Positions 3,320-59,353 of a DNA stretch of 64,000 nucleotides are shown one piece after another (the stretch's first letter is position 1; each line of letters starts with the position of its first letter). The stretch is from contig CP142456.1 of NCBI GenBank assembly GCA_038049695.1, positions 17,698,501-17,762,500 of the forward strand, in the 5' to 3' direction. A model generated the notes under the pieces. It saw only the letters and a program-made list of their open reading frames with translations, was not told the DNA's origin and did not search any database. Source of the stretch: Cinnamomum chago. Lineage: Eukaryota; Streptophyta; Magnoliopsida; Laurales; Lauraceae. The translations under genes were made by a program, and so were the position numbers.

Positions 3320-3720
3320 CAAGTTCTGGTTCGGTGATAGCACCAGCCACAGCTCGGACATCTCCAACCGCGATAGCTTCGGCAGTGGCCTGGGCAATAT
3401 CACCAGCCCCGACTGAGGTATAAGCGCAACCCAGCAGGAGTTTCATCTACGGCTTCGGTGAAAACACCAAACCACTCCTCAGCTCCTTCAGCTGCTAGCT
3501 CCAACAGTGGTCTTGGTGATAGCACCAGCTGCTGCTCAGACAATCTCGACCTTGACAGCTCTAGCAACGGCCTTGGTGATAGCACCACCCTTAGGTCGGA
3601 CGATTCCGGTCCTCAAAGCTTCAGCAGTAGCCTCGGTGACAGCACCAGCTTCTGCTACACAGCTTTAACGTCGGGCCTCTATGACAACACCAACCTCGAC
3701 TTACAGAGCTCCGGCAAAGG
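3320..3720. repeat. Degenerate 60 bp (20-codon) tandem array, element A
   Basis: Units contain 'ggcctcggtgatagcaccag' followed by 'ctcggac' and 'agcttcag'. The spacing is close to 60 bp, as measured directly in the better-preserved B array. Because 60 is a multiple of three, no frame is shifted between units: Ser/Gly/Asp-rich units on + and Ala/Val-rich units on -. Confidence 0.6.
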
Positions 3721-3744
3721 TCTCAGCCCGGTGACAGCACCAGC

Positions 3745-4470
3745 ATGGAAGAGACCACAGCTCGGTTACAGAACCAGCTGCAAAGCGCCGCAGTTATGGA
3801 ACTCGGCAAAGGTCTCAGCTCGGTGATAGCACCAGCATGGAAGAGACCACAGCTCGGTTATAGAATTAGCTGCAAAGCGCCGCAGTTATGGAACTCGGCA
3901 AAGGTCTTAGCTCGGTGGCAGCACCAGCATGGAAGATACCACAGCTCGATTATAGAACCAGCTGCAAAGCGCCGCTGTTATGGAACTCGGCAAAGGTCTC
4001 AGCTCAGTGATAGCACCAGCATTGAAGAGACCACAACTTGGTTACAGAACCAGCTGCAAAGCGCCGTAGTTATGAAACTCGGCAAAGGTCTCAGCTCAAT
4101 GATAGCACCAGTATGGAATAGACCATAACTCGGTTACAGAATTAGCTGCAATGCGCCGCAGTTATGGAACTCGGCAAAGATCTCAGCTCGGTGACAACTC
4201 CATCATGGAAGAGACCACAGCTCGGTTACAGAACCAGCTGTAATGCGCCGCAGTTATGGAACTCGGCAAAGGTCTCAGCTCGGTGATAGCACCAGCATGG
4301 AAGAGACTACAGCTCGGTTACGGAACCAGCTACACAGCCCAGTTATGGAACTCGGTCAAAATCTCGGCTCGGTTGTAGAACCAACCGACCTAGTCACGAG
4401 ACCAAACAAGCAACACGCCAAGTTATGGAACTCGGCGGCTATCCTAGTTCGGTTATGGAACCAGCTATGC
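3745..4470. repeat. 92 bp minisatellite, element A
   Basis: The word 'ctcggttacagaaccagctg' and close variants recur at 3,761, 3,853, 3,945, 4,037, 4,129, 4,221 and 4,313. The spacing is exactly 92 bp each time, about seven to eight units in all. Each unit also carries 'gttatggaactcggcaaag' and 'agcaccagcatggaagag'. A 92 bp unit shifts frame every repeat, so it is not coding. The array lies between the 60 bp array and the end of the antisense gene. Confidence 0.93.
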
Positions 4471-19135: not shown

Positions 19136-19259
19136 ACAGCTTCACTTACAACGACTCTGGTCCTTGCCAAGTTACAGAACTTGGCAGCGGTCACAGCTTG
19201 GTTACAGAACCAGCTGTAAAACGCCATAGTTATGGAACTCGGCAAAGGTCTCAGCTTGG

Positions 19260-19405
19260 TGACAACACCAGTATGGAAGAGAACACAGCTCGGTTACAGA
19301 ACCAGCTGCAAAATGCCGTTGTTATGGAACTCGGCAAATGTCTTAGCTCGGTGACAATACCAGCATAGAAGAGATCACAACTCGGTTACAGAACCAGCTG
19401 CAAAG
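19260..19405. repeat. 92 bp minisatellite, element B, left of LTR E
   Basis: Units at 19,289 and 19,381 are 92 bp apart and match the array in A. The second unit is cut by LTR E. Confidence 0.85.
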
Positions 19406-23346: not shown

Positions 23347-24140
23347 TGCCGTAGTTATGGAACTCGGCAAAAGTCTCAGCTTGGTGACTGCACCAACACA
23401 GAAGAGACGCCAGCTCAGTTACAGAACCAGCTACAAAACGCCGCAGTTATGGAACTCGACAAAGGTCTCAGCTCGGTGACAACACCAGCATGGAATAAAC
23501 CACAGTTCGGTTACAGAACCAGCTGTAAAACGCCGCTGTTATGGAACTCGACAAAGGTCTCACCTTGGTGACAACACCAGCATGGAAGAGACCACAGCTC
23601 GGTTACAGAACCAGCTGCAAAGTGCCGCAGTTATGGAAATCGGCAAAAGTCTCAGCTCGGTAACAGCACCAGCACAGAAGAGACTACAGCTTGGTTACAG
23701 AACCAGCTGCAAAACGCCGCTGTTATGGAACTTGGCAAAGGTCTCAGCTCAGTGACAACACCAGCATGGAAGAGATCACAGTTCGGTTACAGAACCACCT
23801 GCAAAGTGCAACAGTTATGGAACTTGGCAACAGTCTCAGCTCGGTGATAGCACCAGCATGGAAGAAACCACAGCTCGGTTACAGTAACCAGCTGCAAAAC
23901 GCCGCTGTTATAGAACTCGGCAAAGGTCTCACCTTGGTGACAGCACCAGCATGGAAGAGACCATAGCTCGGTTACAGAACCAGCTGCAGAGGGCCGCAGT
24001 TATGGAACTCGACCAAAATCTCAACTCGGTTACAGAACCAGGCAACCTGGTCGTGAGATCAAACGAGCAACACGCCAGGTTATGGAACTCGGCGGCTATC
24101 CTAGTTCGGTTATGGAACCAACTATGCAGTTGGAGGACCT
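23347..24140. repeat. 92 bp minisatellite, element B, right of LTR E
   Basis: Units at 23,414, 23,506, 23,598, 23,690, 23,782, 23,874 and 23,967 are 92 bp apart; the last step is 93 because of one added base. With the two units left of LTR E the original array had about nine units, more than in A. Confidence 0.92.
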
Positions 24141-29635: not shown

Positions 29636-29883
29636 CCTAGCCCTAGCTAGCATGATCACACCTTTCTTTTTTGTCCAACTTATGTTTGGTTCGTATAAAT
29701 GAATTTTGATAGGTTCCACTTCTTCGTATGTATATATTCTCCCAGATGCATTATAGTTTTTGCTTATTATTCTGCTTTGTGCTTTGAACCACATAGAAAA
29801 TGGCAATAGATTGAAAGGATTTACTTTTGATTCCCTGACATGCATACATACATACATACATACATATATATATATAGGGAGCT
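29636..29883 (-). other. Unrecognised minus-strand remnant, right part
   Basis: A minus-strand frame reads NPFNLLPFSMWFKAQSRI and YNASGRIYTYEEVEPIKI before stops. It has protein-like composition but no family I can name. It ends against a (CATA)n/(TA)n run at 29,842-29,876 where the foldback element begins. Confidence 0.25.
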
Positions 29884-29979
29884 GCTCTCCTACACTGTAG
29901 TTGAGCATAGTATCAGCTGCGTTGTGTGAGTCGCACGTGTGGGCGGAACAACAGGGTTACATGGATTGAAATTTGCTGG

Positions 29980-30645
29980 CCCCGCGCTTTCCCCTTTCCC
30001 TCTTTTAATTTCATTTCCTCCTTCTTCGCTAGACCTAATCGAGAGCTCCCTGTTGCTGCCCACCTTTCTCTCTCGCCTGATCTCTCTTCCTCGCTACTGG
30101 TCTCCTCTCTCTCGCCTGACCTCTCTCCTTCGTTGCCCTGCTCCACTCATCTCTCTCGCTTGATCTCTCTCCCTCACTACCCTGCTGCTGCTCTCCTCTC
30201 TCTCCCTCGCTGCCCTACTGCGCTCATCTCTCGCTTGATCTCTCTCCGTCGATGCCCTGCTGCTGTGCTCATCTCTCTCACCAGATCTTTCTCTATCGCT
30301 GTTGTTGCGCTCATCTCTCTTTATATCGCTGCTGCTGCGCTCATTTATCTCTCTCTCTCGCTGCTGCTGCGCTCATCTGTCTCTCTCTCACTCTCGCTGC
30401 TGCTGCGCACGTTTCTCTCTCGCTGCAGCTGTGCTCATCTTTCTTTCTCGTTGCTGCTGTGCTCATCTTTCTTTCTCGTTGCTGCTGTGCTCATCTCTCT
30501 CTCGCTGTTGCTCTCTCCCATCTCGATCTCGTTCTCTCCCTCTTTGCTGCGATCTCTGTCTCTCGATGCTGCTCTCTCCCTCTCTGTTGCGTCTCCCTCA
30601 TCTCTCCCTGTCTCGTTGCTGCAGGTTACTGTTACTGTTGTGCGG
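29980..30645. repeat. TC/GCTGCTGC-rich block, left arm of foldback
   Basis: Runs of 'ctctctcgctgctgctgcgc' alternate with 'tcatctctctc'. All six frames give Ser/Leu/Cys-rich pseudo-proteins; these are composition effects. Its mirror is the GA-rich block at 34,340-34,890. Confidence 0.8.
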
Positions 30646-31399
30646 AAGTTTATGAATGGATGGAAGTTGTCTAGGAATGTTGTCTAGTCATGTTGCAGAA
30701 ATTTTGTTGCAGAGATTGTAATGCACAGAGAGACTTTTGTTGCATATTGGTTTTGTTTAAGCTAGTGCAGAAATTGTAGAAACACTTTTTTTTCAGTTTT
30801 AGATAGTGCAGAAATTGCATTTGTTTCATCAAGTTTCTGAAATTTGTTAATGTTGTGTGGAAGTTTATGAATGGATGGAAGTTGTCTAGTCATGTTTTCT
30901 GTTGTCATATGAGTATAAATTATTTCTTGAGTGTTTCCCTTATTGAAAATTATGGAATGGATGGAATTTCTGTAGGAATATTGTCTAGTCATGTTGCAGA
31001 AATTTTGTTGCAGAGATTGTAATGCACAGAGAGACTTTTGTTGCAGAAGTTGGGTTTGTTTCAGCTAGTGCAGAAATTGTAGAAACACTTTTTTTCCAGT
31101 TTTTGATGGTGCAGAAATTGCGTTTGTTTCAGCTAGTGCAGAAATTTAGAGGCCAAATTTAGTGCAGAAAACAGCAAAACCCAAGTTTTAAAAAACCCAC
31201 ATTGCAATCCAATTCAATCTCAATATATCAAATAAAATCCATTGACCAAACTAAACTAGCAACATGGTAAGATAACAATCATAGTATTCTAAAATCAAAT
31301 TGAAAACAAAATAATGCTAATTGGAACAACATAAAACCTACAAGCGTACATATATTAAAAAAAAAAGGAATGTTTTCCTCCAACAAGCAATGACTCAAA

Positions 31400-31438
31400 T
31401 GTAATCCCACAATGGCAACAAGGACCTTGTTTGGGCAT
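31400..31438 (-). pseudogene. GATA zinc-finger N-terminal fragment, left arm
   Basis: The minus strand reads MPKQGPCCHCGIT from an ATG at 31,438. Plant GATA26/27-type factors begin M-x-K-Q-G-P-C-[YC]-H-C-G-V-T, so this matches the start codon and the first CxxC of the zinc finger. After Thr the similarity stops at a former splice-donor position, read here as TTTGAGT. Confidence 0.55.
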
Positions 31439-31639
31439 TTCTATACTCCCTCCCTCCGATATTAAATCCCACAATGTTGTCCAATATGTTTCAGCAGATT
31501 TGGCAGACAAGATAGGAAAAGTGCGCAAGTTGAAAACGGGGCAAACACGATTGATTCCTACCGAAAAATTGCAGATTTGAAGTTCATCATATGGACTTCG
31601 AAACCCCCAAATTTCGTCCGAAAACTTCCTCAGGAAGTG

Positions 31640-32640
31640 GGTTAACCAGTGCCCCAAACAGGAGTACTTAGCAAGGTTTCAACAGATTTGGCCGACAGGA
31701 TAGGAAAAGTGCGCAAGTTGAAAACAGGGCAAACGCGATTGATTCCTACCCAAAAATTGAAGATTTGAAGTTCATCATATGGACTTCGAAACCCCTAGAT
31801 TTCGTCCGAAAACTTCCTTGGGAAGTGAGTTAACCAGTGCCCCAAACAGGGGTACTTAGCAAGGTTTTAGCAGATTTGGCCGACAGGATAGGAAAAGTGC
31901 GCGAGTTGAAAACGTGGCAAACGCGATTGATTCCTACCCAAAAATTACAGATTTGAAGTTTATCATATGGACTTCGAAACGTGGCAAACGCGATTGATTC
32001 CTACCCAAAAATTACAGATTTGAAGTTTATCATATGGACTTCGAAACCCCTAGATTTCATCCAAAAACTTCCTCGGGAAGTGAGTTAACCAATCCCCCAA
32101 ACAGGGTACTTAGTAAGGTTTCAGCAGATTTGGCTGAGAGGATAGGAAAAGTGTGCGAGTTGAAAACATGGAAAACGCGATTGATTCCTCCCCAAAAATT
32201 ACAAATTTGAAGTTCATCATATGGACTTCGAAACCTCCAAATTTCGTTAAAAAACTCTCTCGGGAAGTGGGTTAACCAGTGCCCCAAACAGGGGTACTCA
32301 GTAAGGTTTCAGCAGATTTGGTCGACAGGATAAGGAAAAGTTTCCGAGTTGAAAACGCGGCAAACTTGATTGATTCCTACCCAAAAATTGTAGATTTGAA
32401 GTTCATCATATGGACTTCGAAACCCCCAAATTTCATCCAAAAGCTCCCTCGGGAAGTAGGTTAACCAATGCCCCAAATAGGAGTACTTAGTAAGGTTTCA
32501 GTAGATTTGGCCGGCAAGATGGGAAAAGTGCGCGAGTTGAAAACCCGACAAACGTGATTGATTCCTACCCAAAAATCTCATATTTGAAGTTCGTCATATG
32601 GACTTCGAAACCCCCAAATTTCGTCCAAAAAGAACTTCCT
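31640..32640 (-). repeat. 188 bp tandem repeats, left arm
   Basis: The phrase 'ggttaaccagtgccccaaac' and variants recur near 31,640, 31,830, 32,084, 32,271 and 32,459. Spacing is 187-190 bp, except one unit enlarged by an internal duplication of about 65 bp (31,911-32,045). On the minus strand many units read an open 62-63 residue repeat (WGFRSPYDELQICNF, FPILSAKSAET). Confidence 0.85.
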
Positions 32641-33060
32641 TTTGAAAAGAATGGCCTATTAAGTATATTTCAATAGGCCTATTGAATAGGCCATTCTTTT
32701 CTAGTTTATTTAATTCTTATTTTCTGTTTACGGGTTATTGAAAAGAGACTAGCCAAAAAAGAATTATAGCAAAGAAGATCTCAATGAGATCGTTCTTCTT
32801 TTTCAGAGAAACACCATCAAACAGAGCTTTTACGAAAGAGAGATGATAATCTGAGAATCGGTTACTGGGGCACTTTTTCAACCCGTTTAAGAAGATCTCC
32901 ACAAACCTTGCTGAGTACCCCAGTTTAGGACACTTTTCAGCCCACTTTCCGAGGGTTTTTTTTTTTTTTTTTTGTTTTGCTGAAATTTGGGTCTTTCTAA
33001 GTCTATATTATGAACTTAAAATATACTATTTTTCAGTTAATTACAATCATTTTTGCGATA
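32641..33060. other. Unique centre (loop) of the foldback element
   Basis: Contains a local hairpin, 'gaatggcctatt'...'aataggccattc' at about 32,659-32,698, a 19-base T run near 32,957, and no gene. In a transcript this would be the loop between the two arms. Confidence 0.6.
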
Positions 33061-33129
33061 TTTTCAACTCGAGCACCTTTTCAACTCGATTAAGAAAATT
33101 GCTGAAACCTTGCTAAGTACCCTTGTTTG

Positions 33130-33480
33130 GGGCACTGGTTAACCCACTTCCCAAGGAATTTTTGGATGAAATTTGGGTGTTTCGAAGTCCATATGATGAA
33201 CTTCAAATCTGCAATTTTTGGGTAGGAATCAATCGCGTTTGCCGCGTTTTCAACTCGCGCAATTTTCCTATCCTGTCGGCCAAATCTGCTGAAACCTTGC
33301 TGAGTACCCTTATTTGGGGCCCTGGTTAACTCACTTCCCGAGGGAGTTTTCGGACGAAATCTGGGGGTTTTGAAGTCCATATGATGAACTTCAAATCTGC
33401 AATTTTTGGGTAGGAATCAATCGCGTTTGCCTAGTTTTCAACTTGCGCACTTTTCCTATCCTGTCTGCCAAATCTGCTGA
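33130..33480 (+). repeat. 188 bp tandem repeats, right arm
   Basis: Two units and part of a third, in opposite orientation to those in the left arm, reading VFRSPYDELQICNFWVGINR and FPILSAKSAETLLST on the + strand. The repeats in both arms read outward from the centre. Confidence 0.82.
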
Positions 33481-33532
33481 AACATATTTGACAACATTGT
33501 GGGATTTAATATCGAAGGGAGGGAGTATAGAA

Positions 33533-33571
33533 ATGCCCAAACAAGGTCCTTGTTGCCATTGTGGGATTACA
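33533..33571 (+). pseudogene. GATA zinc-finger N-terminal fragment, right arm
   Basis: ATG at 33,533 reads MPKQGPCCHCGIT, then 'acat' followed by GTGAGT, a good 5' splice site. The captured piece therefore seems to be a first coding exon with the start of its intron, as expected for Pack-MULE capture of genomic DNA. About 35 bp of sequence upstream of the ATG is shared with the left arm. Confidence 0.57.
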
Positions 33572-35028
33572 TGTGAGTCATTGCTTGTTGGAGGAAAACT
33601 TCCTTTTTTTTATTATATGTACGCTTGTAGGTTTTATGTTGTTCCAATTAGCATTATTTTGTGTTCAATTTGATTTTAGAATACTATGACTGTTATCTTA
33701 CCATGTTGTTGGTTCAGTTTGGTCAATGGATTTTATTTGATATATTGAGACTGAATTGGATTGCAATGTGGGTTTTTTAAAACTTGGGTTTTGCTGTTTT
33801 CTGCACTAAATTTGGCCTCTAAATTTCTGCACTAGCTGAAACAAACGCAATTTCTGCACCATCAAAAACTGGAAAAAAAGTGTTTCTACAATTTCTGCAC
33901 TAGCTGAAACAAACCCAACTTCTGCAACAAAAGTCTCTCTGTGCATTACAATCTCTGCAACAAAATTTCTGCAACATGACTAGACAACATTCCTACAGAA
34001 ATTCCATCCATTCCATAATTCTCAACAAGAGAAACACTCAAGAAATAATTTACACTCATATGACAACTCTAAACATGACTAGACAACTTCCATCCATTCA
34101 TAAACTTCCACACAACATTAATAAATTTCAGAAACTTGCTGAAACAAACGCAATTTCCGCACTATCTAAAATTGGAAAAAAAGTGTTTCTACAATTTCTG
34201 TACTAGCTGAAACAAAACCAACTTCTGCAACAAAAGTCTCTCTGCGCATTACAATCTCTGTAACAAAATTTCTGCAACATGACTAGACAACTTCCATCCA
34301 TTCATAAACTTCCACACAACATTAACAGTAACCTGCAGCAACGAGACAGGGAGAGATGAGGTGAGACGCAGCAGAGAGGGAGAGATTGTAGTAGATAGGT
34401 CGCGCAGCAGCGAGATCGAGCTGGGAGAGAGCAGTAGCGAGAGATAGAGATTGCAGCAGAGAGGGAGAGAACGAGATCGAGATGGGAGAGAGCAGTAGTG
34501 AGAGAGAGAGAGATGAGCACAGCAACAACGAGAGAGAGAGAGAGACAGATGAGCGTAGCAACAACGATATATAGAGAGAGATGAGCGCAGCAACAACGAT
34601 AGAGAGAGAGATTTGGCGAGAGAGATGAGCGCAGCACTAGGGCATCAATGGAGATAGATCAGGCAAGAGATGAGCGCAGCAGGGCAGCGAGGGAAAGAGA
34701 TCAAGAGAGAGAGAGGAGAGCAGCAGCAGGGCAGCGAGAGAGAGAGAGAGAGATCAGGCAAGAGAGATGAGCGGAGCAGGGCAGTGAGAGAGAGAGGTTA
34801 GGCGAGAGAGAGGAGAGCAGCAGCGAGGGAGAGAGATCAGGTGAGAGAGAAAGGAGGGCAGTAACAGGGAGTTCTGGATTAGGTCTGGCGAAGAAGGGGG
34901 AAATGAAAAGAGGGAAAGGGGAAAGCGCGGGGCCAACAAATTTCAATCCATGTAACCCTATTGTTCCACCCACACGTGCGACTCGCACAACGCAGCTGAT
35001 ACTATGCTCAATTGTAGTGTAGGAGAAC

Positions 35029-36785
35029 ATATATATATATATTAGATTTCCTTAGCTAACCATGACTACCAAAACCTTTAGGTGTTAGTAGATGCAACAT
35101 AAATACTTTTCAATACTCCTCAAGTGGAGCCCACTCCTCAACACTTCCCCTCAGGTGGAATCTGGTTGGCGCAGTTTCAGAGCATTCAATACTGCTCAGG
35201 TGGAGCCCACTCTTCAACAATATATTTATAAATATCTCTAAACTGAGGATGCGTAAATGAGATTTCATGTATATGAATGGTCTCAATTACCTTGCCTTAA
35301 CAAATTACTGGTATTGGCATTTAAATTTGCTGGTAAACTAAGTGAATGGCAACCAAGTTCAAATAGTCCAACATAGGCCTAAGATTCAGTAAGCAATGAT
35401 CTAAAGTTGTAATAGTAGCCAAACACCACCCCCTCGCAAATTCTAAGAACTAATATTTTTGTTACATTTTTCCATTCGCCTAATATTTCTTCCACTACAC
35501 CTGAAGTATAATCATGTATTTTGAAACTTTCTTCAATCCAATGGTGGGTCATGTATGGATTGGATAAATCATAATCGGATAAGTATAGGTGTTGATTGTT
35601 GTCATGATCAATTTGGATTTAATGAAATGAGCCTTGTATTGATAAAAAGAAATGAATTTATGCAGGGTTATTCTCTCCCACTAAGTGTAAGTGTTAATGT
35701 TACATGTTTTATAAAGAGAAATTCAACCTATGCATATAAGTATAAAAGATATGGACAAAAATGTCATTTTGCTCTAAAAACTTATGGTGGTATACACAGG
35801 GTCCTATTTGTAAATATTAAAGCTTCATGAACCTATTTACAAATTGTACAAACCTTAGCGTTGTATATACAAAAAGCTCTAAAATTATAATGACAACTTG
35901 TCACTGAAAATCCTCACTACACCGATGTGCATGTGTTTACAAAAGAACATTGATTTGCATATGAAATTAATCACAATCTCATTATTACCCTAAGTGGGTC
36001 CCACTTATCAAAGATCCAAATCAACAAATCAATTCAAATAGCTGGCTTATATATTATGGGTCCTCACCAAAATCATCAAGAGTTGACTCCATTGTTAGAT
36101 TATGAAAATGTTAATTTTCTTTTATACTCATCAAAAGGAAGTGGGCCCAACTCATGTTGAATGAAATTTGGTTTGTATAGATCCTAACCCTATAAACTGA
36201 TCCATTCCCCATAATAGTGATTATTTCTAAACTGATATTGATCCAACCATTAAATTTTTGTCGGATTTATGTATGGACCCCCCATTCATGCTATGATTTG
36301 AGAATACCCACCATTAGATTATGGAAATGCAAGATTTCGGAAGTCATCAATTTGGAGGTCGGCCCCAACACATGTTGGAAAAAAAAAACTGGTTTGTATA
36401 AAATATAAATCAAGCCCTTTAAGCTTGAATACCCCCTATGAATTGGTGATTATTCCATAGTTAATACCAATTCAACCATTAATGGCCCATTGCATATATT
36501 TATGTATGGGCCCATTCACCCCATAAACTGGAAAACCATTTAATACTCGTCCTCTACTAATAGGAAACTCAAAAAAGAGAAAATAGGATGGATAAAATCT
36601 CCTCCTAATCAACTTATGTGATTAACTCTTCGTTTTTCATTGGTTGAATGGAGGGGCGTTTTTGCTTTTGACAATGCCCTGGGTGTTTTCTATCGCTTCT
36701 CATATTTATATGACTGAAAAGTTCTCCCATTGCGCCCCAATCGATTTCAGTCTACCCATCCAGAAGTTAGCCATGGCTCAACACA
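35029..36785. other. Intergenic, no gene seen
   Basis: AT-rich. Two diverged copies of a block with 'ccattgttagattatgaaaatg' / 'ccaccattagattatggaaatg' lie about 210 bp apart (36,090-36,360). I found no coding signal. Confidence 0.5.
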
Positions 36786-36803: not shown

Positions 36804-36857
<54 letters not shown>

Positions 36858-37027
36858 GGAGAATATTCATATGCATTCATCCCTTACCATAGGGTGAGGG
36901 ATACTTCCATAAATGAGGGGTTTCAATTATACCCTATGTACTTAAAATACCTCTTTTGTACTTGAAACACCTCATTTATGGAAGCATCTCTTACCTTATG
37001 GTGAGGGATGGATGCATATGAACATTC

Positions 37028-37030
<3 letters not shown>
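36804..37030. mobile_element. MITE M1 in (TC)n(TA)n
   Basis: An almost full-length hairpin: the left side 'gaatattcatatgcattcat' pairs with the right side 'atggatgcatatgaacattc', and the arms meet near 36,940. The element proper is about 36,855-37,030. (TC)n then (TA)n lies on the left and a 42 bp (TA)n tract on the right. No frame of note. Confidence 0.78.
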
Positions 37031-37073
<43 letters not shown>

Positions 37074-37077
<4 letters not shown>

Positions 37078-37450
37078 ATATTCAACTGAAAACTAGTTCT
37101 CACCTATTATATGAGAACTTTTTTGCGGAGCCCAACTAACAATCCATCCAAATCTAGCAACCAATAGGGAACCCCCTGATAATCACTAATCTCAAGAATT
37201 GGCACACATCCGAATGGACTGAACCGTTGGATCGATGATTGAATATTTTTTTGAACATGAAGCCATTAAACTTGTGGGCACAAATGAAGCGGTTAGGGGT
37301 ATGAGTTTGGAGTCAAATTTGATACTCGGGGGTGGTCTCACGTAGATCTTTTCATCCCACTTGGTCTCATCCCCAAATGAGGTCTACAATTGGGCCCCAC
37401 AAAAACGTTCTCACATAATATGTGAGAACAGTTCCCACTTGAATATTACT
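37074..37450. mobile_element. MITE M2 in (TA)n
   Basis: The ends 'gaaaatattcaactg' and, reversed, 'aagtaatattcaagtg' each lead into an inner dyad 'gttctcac'...'gtgagaac'. It lies between two TA tracts and has no coding frame. Confidence 0.75.
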
Positions 37451-37487
37451 TATATATATATGTGTGTGTGTGTCTATATATATATAT

Positions 37488-37642
37488 GATGTGCTCTTGT
37501 GAGAGACACTCCCACCTTACCATGAGAGATAAGGTAGGGGCCATCACATTTAAGTTGTTGACATTGGATATGGATGTGAGACCCCCACCTTATTTCTCAT
37601 GGTAATTAGGTGGGAGGAGTGTCTCTTATAAGAGCACCTCCC
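37488..37642. mobile_element. MITE M3 in (TA)n
   Basis: The left end 'gatgtgctcttgtgagagac' pairs with the right end 'gtctcttataagagcacctc', and the pairing extends through 'ccatgaga'. It is 155 bp and flanked by (TA)n on both sides. Confidence 0.75.
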
Positions 37643-37653
37643 ATATATATATA

Positions 37654-37792
37654 TGAGGTGGGATCCCACAGGCTGCAGCCTATGTTATCACAGGCTGCAG
37701 CCTGTGTCACACGTGTGGGCAGAGGCCCTGGGCCCTCGCACGTGTGCGTGCAGCCTGTGATAACACAGGCTGCAGCCTGTGTGATCCCCCCA

Positions 37793-37794
<2 letters not shown>
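37654..37794. mobile_element. MITE M4 with nested palindromes, in (TA)n
   Basis: The perfect 18 bp palindrome 'cacaggctgcagcctgtg' occurs at 37,689-37,706 and 37,764-37,781, with an imperfect third at about 37,667. The element as a whole is also an inverted repeat centred near 37,725. GC-rich, unlike its neighbours, and flanked by (TA)n. Confidence 0.75.
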
Positions 37795-37827
<33 letters not shown>

Positions 37828-37830
<3 letters not shown>

Positions 37831-38000
37831 AAATATTCAAGTGAGGGATTCCCTAGCTCACCATGTGTGATGAGGGACTCCCCTTTTTGGAGAGGTTTCA
37901 AGTACAAAAGAGCTTTGGTACTTGATGGGAGTACACCCTTTTGTACTTGAAACTACCCAAAAAGGAGAGTCCCTCACCACACATGGTGAGGGAATTATAT
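37828..38000. mobile_element. MITE M5, related to M1, right end lost
   Basis: The left part 'accatgtgtgatgagggact' pairs with 'agtccctcaccacacatggt', and the inner 'tttcaagtacaaaagag' is shared with M1. The left flank is (TA)n. The right terminus is missing: the sequence runs into 'aattatatattctcg'. Confidence 0.7.
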
Positions 38001-40287: not shown

Positions 40288-43200
40288 TGTCACGTCCCCT
40301 GAACCCGATTAGAAAATAAACCGGATCCGGGGAGTGAAATTTTGGGCCAATTAAAAAAATTTGCCCCTTTTGGCCCAAGGATTGTAAATCCGCTGTGAGG
40401 ATAATGTATTTCAACCTCAAAACATAAAACAATAGTGGAATTCATACATTGATATCAACAATGGATAATAAATCTCAATTAAATTTAAAGTTGCAAGCAA
40501 CGATTAAAGTTAAAGAGGAAGTTAATTTAATTACTATGGCCATCCCATAAACTAATACCATTAAACAACATAGAGGCAATGAAAGAAAAGTTCAACAAAG
40601 AATAACAATGAATTAAATAAAATCTAATATTTGTCCCAAAGTGAGTCTCTCATGTGCCTGGTAATGATAACGCTACTCTACGTCATCGGCACTCCACTCC
40701 CGTGCCTCCTCTGCTGGTTGGAGATCCTCTGGGATCTCCTCATTGGCCTGCTCCTCGTAGTAGTACTCACCTGAGGAGTCTGCACACCAAGGAACCGAGT
40801 CAACGACATGTTGAGCAATAGATAAGCAAGATATAATTAAAACATAACATGCATCAAATATAAGAGTAATGACAAGTACAAGATCGTAGGAATACAAGAA
40901 ACAATACTAGGCATGTAGCATAAGTAAATAACTATCAAAATCATAAATAGAAATCCTAGTAATACTAACAATCACCACTACCAATGTAATGCAATGCACA
41001 AGCGGAAATCTCTGTGGATGTCCAAACCACCTCACGGGGTACTAGTAATAATTCTACCCGGACTACTGATACCAAAGTCCGGCTCTAGGGGAATCCAAGC
41101 TCCCGGTCCTGGGAATAGTAGCACGGTCCAAGCCCGCTCCCAACTATTCAACGTCATGGACGCCGTCCAAAGCCGACTGCCCACCCCGATGTCCGAGTAA
41201 CCGACCCATCAATAAACCCCAAACTGCAGCTGGCCATGATATGCAAATAATAATAATAATGTGGTGTTGACATGCGGGGAAAACCAAGTCAAGCAAGTCT
41301 GGCTAGTTCAGCACACCAAGCGTGTTCTTAAGGATTATCTCATTCAAACAATACAAGATAGACCATCCACACGATAATCCCTTACATTCTAGCCAGTCAT
41401 GTTTATTAATACACGATACATGATTCCTAAGGTACACTCTAAATCAGGTCCTTGTTCTAATTCTATAAGAGTTTATGTTTAATAATTAATTAGGTGTTTT
41501 ATGCCAAGAGAATGTACAAGGATACAAAATCAACGGATACGATTAACAAATCAGGGAGATATTATAATCCAATCCTAAGCAAGTGTTGTCATCCATGTAC
41601 CATATGTGGTTTAACGGAGTGCGTGGGGAATTCGAATCATCAATGCTTATAAAGAATTTTCTTGGTGTACAATCATGTTGAGCACCGATTGATTCAATTC
41701 CATACGCATTCAGTTAAACCATACACAATACACGAAAACCTAGACAACCCATCGGAGCACACCAAGCCACGTGCTACGATTTCAAAACCCCATTAATGGT
41801 CATGTGAGAGTGGTTTCATGGTTTCCAATGTCTAAGGCTCAAACCTAGGCTAACAATCTCGTTACTAACAAGAAAGTGATCTAAATAATTAATCTCCTTA
41901 GTTACCTACCTACCCGATCCCCAATCATCACGAAACATGTATCATTGGATTCTAAGCTCAAAGAGCTTTTCAACGGTATATGGCTCGCGAAATTCCGTCG
42001 TATGTTTTAGAAGTTATGGCCCATAGAAGTTTGTCCCTTTATATATATATATGTATATATAAAGAGCAAGGCTCTCCTAAGCTCAAGCTTAGGAAAAAAT
42101 TTCGTAAGCTCATGCTTGTGGGGCCCACGTTTGGTCCATCCAAATGGACCAAATACATGACTTTCCTAAATTACACATGTCCACCAACTTTCGGTCAGAT
42201 TTGAATTTATTGGACCGTTGGATTGACTATGTATCAATCCAAATGGACCGTTGACCATTAAATTTTTGGGCCCATATGGAGATGTTATAAATCGCATTTG
42301 GGGCTTATTTTTTGTAGAGAGGAAGATCCAAGGGAGTCCTTGAAATCCCCCCCACCCCCATCCTCATGTGGGTCCCCAAGTGGGCCCCACTACATACTTG
42401 AGCTAACCTTCTTATAAGCTTGAGCTTAGGAGAGCTGACCCCATATATAAATATATATATATAAAAAGCGCGACGGACCAACAATGTGTCCAACTCAGTG
42501 GATGGATGATCCAACCGCAACCATGATTCATGTCAGGCAACATTTCTTTGTTTTTTTTTTCCTGACTCATCATATGCGCTGATGTCATGGCCATGGACGT
42601 TCTGAACGTCCAGCCATCATTCAACGTTTCCATTTCTTTTTTTTTTTTTTTAACGTCAAATACAGAACCCCATTTTTTGCAGTTTTTTACCCAATCCTTT
42701 CCAAAAATTCACATGCACAAAACTGAGCCACCGTGCTCCCCTAATAATTAATTCCATCCATCATCACTTCCACTTACATCAATTAACAACTAAAATTAAT
42801 AATTAAATTAAATAAACCCAAATTAATAACAGAACAGGCTTGGAATAAGGGAAACCTAACAAGAAAACACATCCAATCAATGGAAGACATACACACATGC
42901 TTAATTATAAAATGCAGATCTACTTGCCTCAACCAAGAAGAAGATTGGAAATGGGGAAATCTGAGGAGAAGTCCTAACACTGTCGAAACATCAATCTACT
43001 CGACCAAACGCAATCTAACACGTAAAGGAGAAGAAAAAAAAGGAAAAGATCAAGATCTAACCTAAATCTAAACCAAAGAGAATTGATTGAAAAGATAAAA
43101 GAGAGGGAAATCTTACCAAACTGATGTCAATGGAAAGAGGAGATCGCGAGGAAGAAGGTGAGCGACTCGGATCGCGGAAGTGATCCTTCAGGGAAGGAGT

Positions 43201-44288: not shown

Positions 44289-44594
44289 TATAGATTACAA
44301 AAAGAGGTTATGCCGGGAATTCGAAATCTCCTCCTTGATACCGTTGGTAGTCATGTTTTCATCTTAATGTTCTCTTTATATACATATTTTTTCCATAAAA
44401 AAACACCAAAGGATCCCACCCAGAAACCTTGCATCAGTTCATCCCCTCAAGCCATATCTCATCCACATCAAGAGAGAGTGTCTTGGTCCCTCAAAGATTT
44501 TCTTCCTCAACGTCATATCATATAGAGGAGAGGATCTTTGTTCTCTTGACCCGACCAAAGATCATATTCTCCAACATAAGATCCTATCTCTAAA

Positions 44595-45555
44595 ATGGAA
44601 AGCAAGAATTATGCTTCACCACAGAATTTGTATTTCCAGCAAGGTGATGATCTGGAAGAGAATTATGGTGCACCACAGAATTTATATTTCCAGCAAGGTG
44701 ATGAGCTGTGCTTCCAGACCTCTCTTCCCCACCACACCCACAAAATGCAAGACATGCTTGCCAACCAGCCTCCAATGTCTGTTGACACCTCTCATGACCT
44801 TCAAAGTGGCAAATCCAAGAAGTTGGTTGCACCCATCATCCATGATGCCGAAGGCGATGTAAGCCACGTTGTTAAGAGGAAAAAGAGCATCCATCGGATC
44901 GTTGAGAGGCAGCGCAGGCAGGAGATGTCGATGCTCTACTTGTTGCTGAGATCGCTGCTCCCACTCGAATATCTCAAGGCAAGGAATGTGGGCCTCTTCA
45001 TTATTTTCTGTTGTTCATGTTCAAGGAATTGGGTTTAACATTTGTAGATTTTTTGTAGGGCAAGAGATCTATCATTGATCACATGAGCGAGGCTGTGAAT
45101 TACATAAACCATCTGAAGGTAAAGATCCAGGAGCTAACAGAGAAGCGAGACCAGATGAGAAGGCTTATCACATCCTCATCCAATTCAGGATCTCCACAAA
45201 ATGAAGCTTGCCTACTGTCACCACACATATCAGTGATGGCTACTTTAAATGGAGCCATAGTTGCTATTGTTGGCAAGCAGGGGCATGAAGTGCCGCTGTC
45301 GAGGGTGATTGCCACCTTGGTAGAAGACGGCCTTAATGTCATCCGTGTTTCAACTTGCATAAAGAGGCAGTCAATTTACAGTATTGAATGCGAGGTACAT
45401 ACGATTTATCTATTGTTGTTGAATTATGGGAATTCCATGCAAGATTTGAATTTTGCTAAGGTTTTTGGCAATTTCTATCACAGAGTGATGATCCAGGAGT
45501 CGATTCATCTAGGGTAGAACAAAAACTGAGAGATTCAATTTGCTATTCAAATTGA
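44595..45555 (+). CDS. bHLH transcription factor (bHLH36/118/120/125-like), gene 1
   Basis: Nuclear DNA-binding regulator of the plant bHLH group with a basic region starting near residue 95. Three exons: 44,595-44,978, 45,059-45,394 and 45,484-45,555; 263 codons. The basic region IHRIVERQRRQEM has the His-Glu-Arg pattern (H100, E104, R108) for E-box/G-box contact. Helix 1 (LYLLLRSLLPLEYLK) ends at intron 1, and helix 2 (SEAVNYINHLKVKIQEL) opens exon 2. The later part of exon 2 (GAIVAIVGKQGHEVPLSRV) looks ACT-like and probably dimerises; exon 3 ends VDSSRVEQKLRDSICYSN. Intron 1 has a GC donor (AAG then GCAAGG). The start is chosen by conservation with gene 2; an in-frame upstream ORF (44,310-44,525) stops before it. 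Oddity: APQNLYFQQGD occurs twice. Confidence 0.9.
44979..45058 (+). other. GC-AG intron 1 of bHLH gene 1
   Basis: 80 bp from GCAAGG to 'ttttttgtag'. Joining the flanks restores the helix 1-loop-helix 2 frame (LEYLK then GKRS). Gene 2 has GTAAGG at the same place. Confidence 0.8.
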
Positions 45556-58136: not shown

Positions 58137-58443
58137 TATAGATTAGAAAAAGAGCTTATACTGTGTATCCGAAATCTCTTCCTTGATACTGTTGGTAGCC
58201 CTTGCTTTCTTCCTGATGCCCTCTTTATATATATTTTTTTTTCATTACCAACACCAAAGGATCTCACCCAGAAACCTTTGCTTCAGTTCATCCCCTCAAG
58301 CCTATCTCATCCACAGAGAGAAAGTCTTGGCCCCTCAAAGATCTTCTTCCTCTATACCATATCACATAGAGGTGGAGAGGGTCTTGGTTCTGCTGACCCA
58401 ACCAAAGATCATATTCCCCAAGATAAGATCTCATCTCCCTAAA

Positions 58444-59353
58444 ATGGAAAGAATGAATTATGTTGCACCACAGAATTTGTATTTCCAGCAAGGTGATGAT
58501 CTGTGTTTCCAGACCACTCTCCCCCACCACACCCACATAATTCAAGGCATGCTTACCAACCACCCTCCCATGTCTGTTGACTCCTCTCATGAGCTGCTTC
58601 AAGAAGGAAAACCCAAGAAGTTGGGTGAATCAATCACCCCTGATGCCAAAGGTGATGAGAGTCACACTAGCAAGAAGAAAAAGATCGTCCACCGAGACGC
58701 CGAGAGGCAGCGTCGGCAGGAGATGTCCACGCTCTACATGTTGCTGAGATCGCACCTCCCACTCGAATATCTGAAGGTAAGGAATGCTGGTTCTTTCATT
58801 ATTTTTTCTTGTTGATGTTCAAGGAAGTAGGTTTTGTTTTTGTGGATTGTTTGCAGGGAAAGAAATCCATCTCTGATCACATGTGCGAGGCTGCGAATTA
58901 CATTAACCATCTGAAGGCCAAGATCGAGGAGCTGACAGAGAAGCGAGACCAGATGAGAAGGCTTTTATCACATCCTCATCTAATTCTAGATCTCCCCAAA
59001 ATGAAGCTCGCCCACTTTCACCAGACATATCATTGAGGGCTACTTCAAATGGAGCTGCAGTTCTCATCGTTGACAGGTCGGGGCATGAATTGCCACTCCC
59101 ACGAGTAATTGCTGCCTTAGAAGAAGAAGGCCTTAATGTCATCAGTGTTTCAACTTGCATGAGCACACAGTCTGTCTACAACATCGAATGCGAGGTACAT
59201 ACCATTTCTCTATTATCCTTGAATTATTAGAATTCCATACAAGATTTGGATTTCGCTAACCTTTCTGGCAATTTCTATCAGAGTAATGGCCCAAGAGTCG
59301 ATTCGTCAAGGCTAGAACAAAAACTAAGAGCTTCAATTTGCTTGGCACATTGA
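58444..59353 (+). CDS. bHLH transcription factor paralogue, gene 2, frameshifted after the bHLH domain
   Basis: Paralogue of the gene at 44,595 with the same exons: 58,444-58,776, 58,857-59,194 and 59,282-59,353, all with GT-AG introns. The basic region VHRDAERQRRQEM keeps the His-Glu-Arg pattern. Helix 1 (LYMLLRSHLPLEYLK) and helix 2 (CEAANYINHLKAKIEEL) are intact. Exon 2 is 338 bp against 336 in gene 1 because of two extra T within 58,963-58,966. As read, translation stops at 59,034-59,036 after 170 codons, losing the ACT-like part. The old frame downstream is still open to the exon 3 stop (VDSSRLEQKLRASICLAH), so the shift is recent or an assembly error. The start is placed by match to gene 1, but an in-frame ATG at 58,216 could add 76 residues. 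Confidence 0.75.

Follow-up and report, generated by a model that had tools for sequence, protein, structure and literature searches.

We describe here a foldback element in the genome of Cinnamomum chago that carries a fragment of a GATA zinc-finger gene in both of its arms. The element lies in a 64-kb stretch (C6:17698501-17762500, hereafter the window) of the 1.06-Gb genome of 14 contigs, and its ends are at 29877 and 35028, each adjoined by a (TA)n tract. It is very probably a non-autonomous Mutator-like (FAR1/SWIM-type) foldback that inherited the captured fragment from an ancestor of its family, in a shortened form, and in which one arm was mirrored.

A GATA gene fragment in both arms of a foldback

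As the sequence-only reading of this DNA had proposed, the element is a long-armed foldback, with very long arms made of internal sub-repeats and a short centre. In a pairwise alignment, the inverted arms (29864-31979 against 35042-32994) were 86% identical over 2149 columns, and the outer 1.6 kb were 90.3% identical when gaps were left out. Reading inward from its terminal head, each arm passes through a CT-rich tract and ~300-bp repeats to the GATA segment and ends in 188-bp tandem repeats (Table 1). Arm-to-arm identity was highest in the GATA segment (96.4%) and the ~300-bp repeat zone (95.8%), lower in the terminal head (92.6%), and lowest in the CT-rich tract (82.0%). The element has the long terminal inverted repeats (TIRs) expected of Mutator-like elements (MULEs). 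A Pfam scan of all 19 listed open reading frames (ORFs) of at least 80 aa found no transposase in it and gave one weak unrelated match; no coding function of the element's own was found among these ORFs. Long inverted repeats are generally error-prone in assemblies, and the palindrome might be an assembly artefact. This is extremely unlikely, since the arms differ at ~10% of the outer sites and in repeat number, each end of the element falls at a (TA)n tract, and three further foldbacks of a longer form are found on C9 and C3.

In both arms MPKQGPCCHCGIT begins at an ATG (33533 on the plus strand and 31438 on the minus strand). The splice donor GTGAGT is kept in the right arm, at 33573, and the corresponding position in the left arm reads TTGAGT. 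This 13-mer scored 64 against a GATA26/27 N-terminus, and the best score among 40 dinucleotide shuffles of the window against the same N-terminus was 33. A chance origin was rejected by these scores, and then by the matching genes found on C8 and C9. The peptide had no matches in solved structures, Pfam, or text, and exact-pattern scans in viral contigs and genome contigs gave none either.

A genome search with 33480-33620 gave at least 28 matches (genome match counts here are lower bounds). The 28 listed matches were the two arms themselves, the parent gene on C9, a paralogue on C8 (41 bp), eight leader-only places (30 bp), and 16 further transposon copies of the GATA segment, spread over 13 loci as a minimum. 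The GATA segment matches the C9 gene over ~285 bp at 92-93% (92.6% in one alignment), and the captured part comprises the end of the leader, exon 1, the GTGAGT donor, and the first part of intron 1. Homology between the element and the C9 gene is confined to 31187-31469 and 33502-33781. Exon 1 of the C9 gene reads ATGCCCAAACAAGG..., with its ATG at 67886978 and a GTGAGT donor, and exon 2, from 67892033, continues in frame into a GATA finger (PF00320, 47.4 bits). The C8 paralogue starts with MGKQGPCCHCGVT, has its own finger exon, and appears to have the same exon layout, the splicing of both genes being read from sequence; its matched stretches to the C9 gene are 72.6-90.2% identical, two of them at 72.6% and 73.8%. 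The sequence-only reading had predicted such a parent gene with an exon 1/intron border, and its 13-residue match indeed extends into 285 bp of shared DNA. The element therefore holds a host-gene fragment with a parental copy elsewhere in the genome, as Pack-MULEs do. A Stowaway origin of the leader, which is like the Stowaway end TACTCCCTCC, was dropped once this leader turned out to belong to the C9 gene.

A third kind of locus (L025, L026, L027, and L028, with L035 at C10:71.62-71.63 Mb) holds the 5' leader of the same GATA gene. In these leader-only loci the leader stops just short of the ATG; there are eight such places, and the four that were fetched hold 49-179 columns. Judged by eye, six of the eight are within ~17 kb of a MULE transposase match among the 150 listed. 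The C10 locus has, 3.5 kb away, a 671-aa ORF that covers a PF10551 match.

A dispersed family and the mirroring of its arms

The transposon copies of the GATA segment outside the window comprise L011 on C5 and a group that we call family B (L012-L015 and L017-L023), with L024 as a partial copy. Family B holds a longer piece of the C9 gene (742 columns in L014 and L015, 92-93%). We defined as diagnostic the 12 sites at which at least 75% of the family B segments differ from the C9 gene. Both window arms were family-B-like at 12 of 12 sites and gene-like at none, and L011 was family-B-like at 11, with a gap at the remaining one. Moreover, ~20 bp outside the gene's intron-side edge are common to the window arms and family B. 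Because of these shared states and this junction past the gene edge, the sequence comparison shows the capture to be common to the dispersed family and of single origin. By the same comparison, the window element is a shortened derivative (~285 bp, in the opposite orientation to the longer form), not a fresh capture of its own. If the element were a simple Pack-MULE that had taken its fragment straight from the gene in an event separate from the other copies, one would also expect the 92-93% match over 285 bp and the exact agreement of 13 residues, but the diagnostic sites and the shared junction make this origin very unlikely. Thus, the Pack-MULE-style capture put forward by the sequence-only reading holds as a MULE-like capture from a host gene, but it belongs to the family and not to this copy.

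In a tree of 17 transposable element (TE) segments, with the C9 gene as the outgroup and the partial L024 left out, the window arms grouped with L011 inside a burst of TE copies with mostly weak nodes. Of the 17 copies, 10 have kept an exon that translates as MPKQGPCCHCGIT. The gene piece points inward in family B and outward in L011 and the window element, and in the latter two it lies between two repeat blocks of the MULE family itself.

The segment is present at one end in five loci (L011, L015, L019, L020, and L022) and in both inverted ends in three (L012, L013, and L014); this sorting leaves out L017, L018, L021, L023, and L024. L011 is like the window element in its kind of ends, its (TA)n flanks, and its repeat order, but has the GATA segment on one side only. 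L015, L019, L020, and L022 have in common a different other arm, 85-91% identical among them. The family terminal head was also found at the far end of L015, L019, and L022, the three one-end forms searched there. It was not found in the stretch beside L017, the fourth one searched, or in L040. As read from these sequences, at least two branches have mirrored ends that bear the segment, and the arm doubling that had been suggested from the window alone is borne out by the one-end and two-end relatives. Their coexistence supports capture first and mirroring later, and we infer that the one-end state is the older.

In the ~300-bp repeats, 6 of 6 informative sites with a 2+2 pattern group the outer copies of the two arms together, and likewise the inner copies, so the ~300-bp duplication is probably older than the mirroring. 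Differences between the arms are found at 51 of 861 columns of the inner zone, and yet a 236-bp tract is identical between them, a length that was not reached in 5000 permutations, which suggests later conversion between the arms.

Taken as a series of steps, a family ancestor would have taken up, inside one end, as much as ~742 bp from the 5' end of the C9 GATA26/27-type gene. That the capture is common to the family follows from the shared sequence; that it was at one end first would fit the one-end copies. The shortened ~285-bp inverted version seen between family repeat blocks in L011 and the window element would come next. One arm would then have been copied onto the other end to give the foldback, as the one-arm relative L011 suggests, possibly via template switching or recombination between the ends (compare the models in PMC8277862). 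The arms may have been partly homogenised afterwards, to judge by the identical tract, and mobilisation would have been by a transposase supplied in trans. The family often inserts in (TA)n.

Transposon superfamily, insertion sites, and neighbouring elements

A direct genome search with the terminal head of the window element gave three outside matches, and a search with the end of L011 gave 45, several as inverted pairs. Four TIR pairs were examined (L041, L042, L043, and L044). L042, L043, and L044 have (TA)n flanks, ends of the form CT(A/G)CTC(C/T)CCTA(C/T)A(C/T)TGCAGT, and, beside the transposase, 188-bp arrays at 67-80% among the matches listed. All three hold, on the minus strand and in separate ORF pieces, the MULE transposase domain PF10551 (87.5-106.4 bits) and FAR1 PF03101 (57-73 bits); SWIM PF04434 passed the cut-off in two of them (L043 and L044) and scored below it in L042. 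Thus, three of the four TIR pairs are elements with homologous ends and a MULE transposase, and L041 differs. Aligned with L043, the window element matches at 3878 of 5152 bases (CT-rich tracts included, low-complexity filter off), the GATA segment excepted. Family B ends align to the window end over 69 columns at 75-77%, at the far ends of L015 and L019.

MULEs make target-site duplications of 9 bp (8-11 bp as a class criterion). At L015, which lies outside (TA)n, the 9-bp flanks GTCTATAAT and GTCTATACT agree at 8 of 9 positions. An 8-mer search of the short flanks of family B had given nothing convincing, and the L015 pair was seen after the far ends had been located; no duplication was readable at L019 and L022. 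Insertion in (TA)n was found for several members (the window element, L011, L041, and L042-L044). Family B is mixed, with TA-rich ends at L019 and L022 and not at L015, L017, L021, and L023. The window has 14 listed (TA)n tracts of at least four units, and GCTCTCCTA occurs in it three times against 0.49 expected, each time at the end of a (TA)n-flanked element. MULE membership of the window element is supported through its relatives, because these have MULE pieces, homologous ends, and the L015 flanks.

L041 requires a different explanation. Its TIRs are 97-99% identical, and between them are a 473-aa ORF matching PF04827 and PF13359 and a second ORF matching PF14303, so elements with these ends might be PIF/Harbinger transposons. 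We compared TWA-flanked 16-mers from 601-2330 with those from 5276-8890 of L041, and two pairs agreed at 12 or more positions, one of these at 14 of 16 and with TTA. This pair, at 849/5610, encloses the transposase with TTA on both sides, as for a nested Harbinger. Because TTA and short repeats of its own enclose it, the L041 Harbinger is read as nested, and a PIF/Harbinger partner was set aside after this test, the transposase being present in this one of the four TIR pairs only. With MULE pieces in the three other fetched pairs and the 8 of 9 agreement at L015, a PIF/Harbinger identity for the family is highly improbable. The PIF/Harbinger element itself (L041:852-5609), with its open 473-aa transposase frame and a NAM-associated ORF, appears to be nested in a (TA)n-flanked element.

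Several points weigh against a MULE foldback that shares its capture with L011 and family B. The target-site duplication of the window copy is not readable, since both ends abut (TA)n, and the right end of the element is without its outermost G-rich bases. One of the four TIR pairs held a PIF/Harbinger and not a MULE transposase, although it is probably nested. In L042-L044, the candidate transposase relatives, the transposase pieces are separate ORFs, and the L042 ends match the window head only indirectly, via L011. The direct pairwise alignment of the window end to the end of the element at 42 kb in the window scored only at the 98th percentile of the background. Finally, the grouping of the window arms with L011 is weak (support 0.78), and the neighbouring nodes are weaker still.

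Table 1. Features of the foldback element, in window coordinates
Feature	Coordinates	Strand	Remarks
Left (TA)n flank of insertion	29864..29876		
Left terminal repeat head, begins GGGAGCTGCTCTCCTACACTG	29877..30050	+	similar ends: L011, family B, L043, L044
CT-rich tract, left arm	30051..30629	+	
~300-bp repeat zone, left arm	30630..31150	+	also in transposase-bearing relative L043
236-bp tract identical between arms	30981..31216		pairs with sequence running down from 33987; conversion tract possible
GATA segment, left arm	31167..31469	-	31187-31469, parent-gene match; 31167-31186, junction common to family B
Exon 1 copy, left arm	31399..31438	-	donor position TTGAGT
188-bp tandem repeats, left arm	31488..32640	+	6 units, one longer, last incomplete
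Centre (loop)	32641..32869		almost no match to L042-L044; parts match family B
Short palindrome in centre	32644-32701		
188-bp repeats, right arm	32870..33491	-	two good units and one diverged
GATA segment, right arm	33502..33801	+	33502-33781, parent-gene match
Exon 1 copy, right arm, MPKQGPCCHCGIT	33533..33572	+	donor GTGAGT at 33573
~300-bp repeat zone, right arm	33818..34327	-	
CT-rich tract, right arm (GA-rich on +)	34328..34866	-	
Right terminal repeat head	34867..35028	-	without outermost G-rich bases
Right (TA)n flank of insertion	35029..35042		

Other elements were also seen in the window. At 36829-37996, five small palindromic elements are in a row with (TA)n tracts between them, an arrangement that resembles the SaTar MULE arrays. 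A further (TA)n-flanked element at 42062-42444 has the ends GCTCTCCTAAGCTCAAGCTTA, and GCTCTCCTA is common to it and the left end of the foldback. The 188-bp repeat is dispersed genome-wide, often in short arrays, with at least 151 matches (40 of 697 candidate stretches scored). Tandem repeats of 92 bp with a similar consensus, found at 3712-4373, 19192-19404, and 23348-24041, may belong to repeated retroelement copies. At 44580-45517 and 58147-59036 there are two similar bHLH-type gene regions (PF00010, 23.2 and 24.8 bits), which may be a local duplicate. Rfam and tRNA scans of the window gave no matches.

Predicted hairpin and comparison with known systems

A transcript of 29884-35028 is predicted to fold at -3608 kcal/mol, compared with -1394 to -1406 kcal/mol for three shuffles. 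Pairs that span more than 1500 nt number 1574 in the predicted fold and run from 29886/35026 to 31829/33330. The sequence-only reading had expected a hairpin of more than 2 kb; the fold is indeed predicted, but its stem is imperfect and amounts to 1.7-1.9 kb per arm. In this model exon 1 and the leader pair with their complement. The seven exon positions listed pair with their mirror positions, a 57-nt run identical between the arms covers the exon, and 414 of 1609 21-nt alignment windows are perfect between the arms. The leader and exon 1 of the C9 gene (71 nt) contain 51 21-mers, all of which are present in the left arm and 37 in the right arm, these 37 being in both. By contrast, a 10-kb stretch with the C8 paralogue has no 21-mer in common with the arms. 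By sequence identity, small RNAs against the parent are plausible, and silencing of the C9 gene by the predicted hairpin is possible.

It might further be proposed that the doubled arms are a standing source of hairpin RNA that regulates the C9 gene in trans and were kept for that. Compared with the C9 gene, the left arm has 0 differences in 71 positions of leader and exon and 23 in 212 of the intron part (Fisher p 0.0017). However, the contrast in the right arm (1 in 71 against 18 in 209) has a p value of 0.052, and a constrained gene together with young copies can account for such excess identity. The exon-intron contrast is no proof of function, because constraint on the exon of the gene but not on its intron would lead to it as well. 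A weak contrast is seen among the TE copies (25 of 1203 against 114 of 3353; Fisher p, uncorrected for relatedness, 0.024; exon alone, 15 of 680 against 124 of 3876), and purifying selection on their exon copies was not established. Moreover, the same 21-mers are also present in other copies. We therefore regard a regulator maintained for this role as unlikely. That the foldbacks of the family are ready-made, paralogue-specific silencers of the C9 GATA gene, formed from dispersed inverted copies of its 5' end, is similarly doubtful. If that were true, the 71 nt of leader and exon 1 in the left arm would stay identical to the gene while the intron part drifts.

The element resembles Pack-MULEs in its MULE-type ends and relatives, the lack of a transposase of its own among the ORFs scanned, a parental 5' fragment with an exon/intron border, and several copies. 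It is unlike them in that the fragment, which lies between the TIRs in Pack-MULEs, is inside long inverted arms, twice and in opposite orientation, in an element inserted in (TA)n. The published systems compared below are taken from the portions of the cited papers that were examined. MuTAnT of Medicago truncatula (PMC4486113) is likewise a MULE with foldback arms made of modules, (TA)n insertion, a transposase-bearing relative, G-rich extreme ends that are often incomplete, and 9-nt duplications where they are readable. However, its TIR mask GGGGTTTGCTAGAACA does not match GGGAGCTGCTCTCC here by inspection, 90% of MuTAnTs are 200-300 bp, and those portions of the paper nowhere mention a gene fragment. 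The SaTar arrays of guayule and rice (PMC5907723) are clustered, microsatellite-targeted non-autonomous MULEs like the row at 36829-37996, but the guayule elements are 400-1050 bp with TIRs of 40-170 bp among the rows listed, and no foldback is named there. MULEs with multiple or tandem TIRs, such as the tomato Pack-MULE PM-ZIBP (PMC3310237), also have duplicated ends, a fragment of a zinc-ion-binding gene, and several copies; their TIRs are in tandem at each end, whereas here the whole fragment-bearing arm is mirrored.

In maize, an inverted duplication was proposed to give rise to the long hairpin RNA and small interfering RNAs of Mu killer (PMC3440606). The target there is a transposon and silencing was measured, whereas the predicted hairpin of the window element would act on a host gene. 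The Ssk-FB4 Pack-TIR of Drosophila (PMC8277862) is also a foldback with repetitive arms that acquired a host gene, but it is an animal FB4 with a potentially coding gene copy, while the window element holds a fragment with exon 1 inside its arms. In the literature titles and abstract openings surveyed, no plant foldback with a gene fragment in both arms was described; we do not claim that none is in print.

The window element is thus of a known kind, treated here as a variant that combines a Pack-type cargo inside mirrored arms with a (TA)n location. The parent gene, one-end elements, two-arm foldbacks, and transposase-bearing relatives stand as steps together in one genome, so that how foldbacks acquire and mirror host sequence becomes directly testable. 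The family also offers a concrete candidate case in which a transposon-derived hairpin might act on one particular transcription factor gene.

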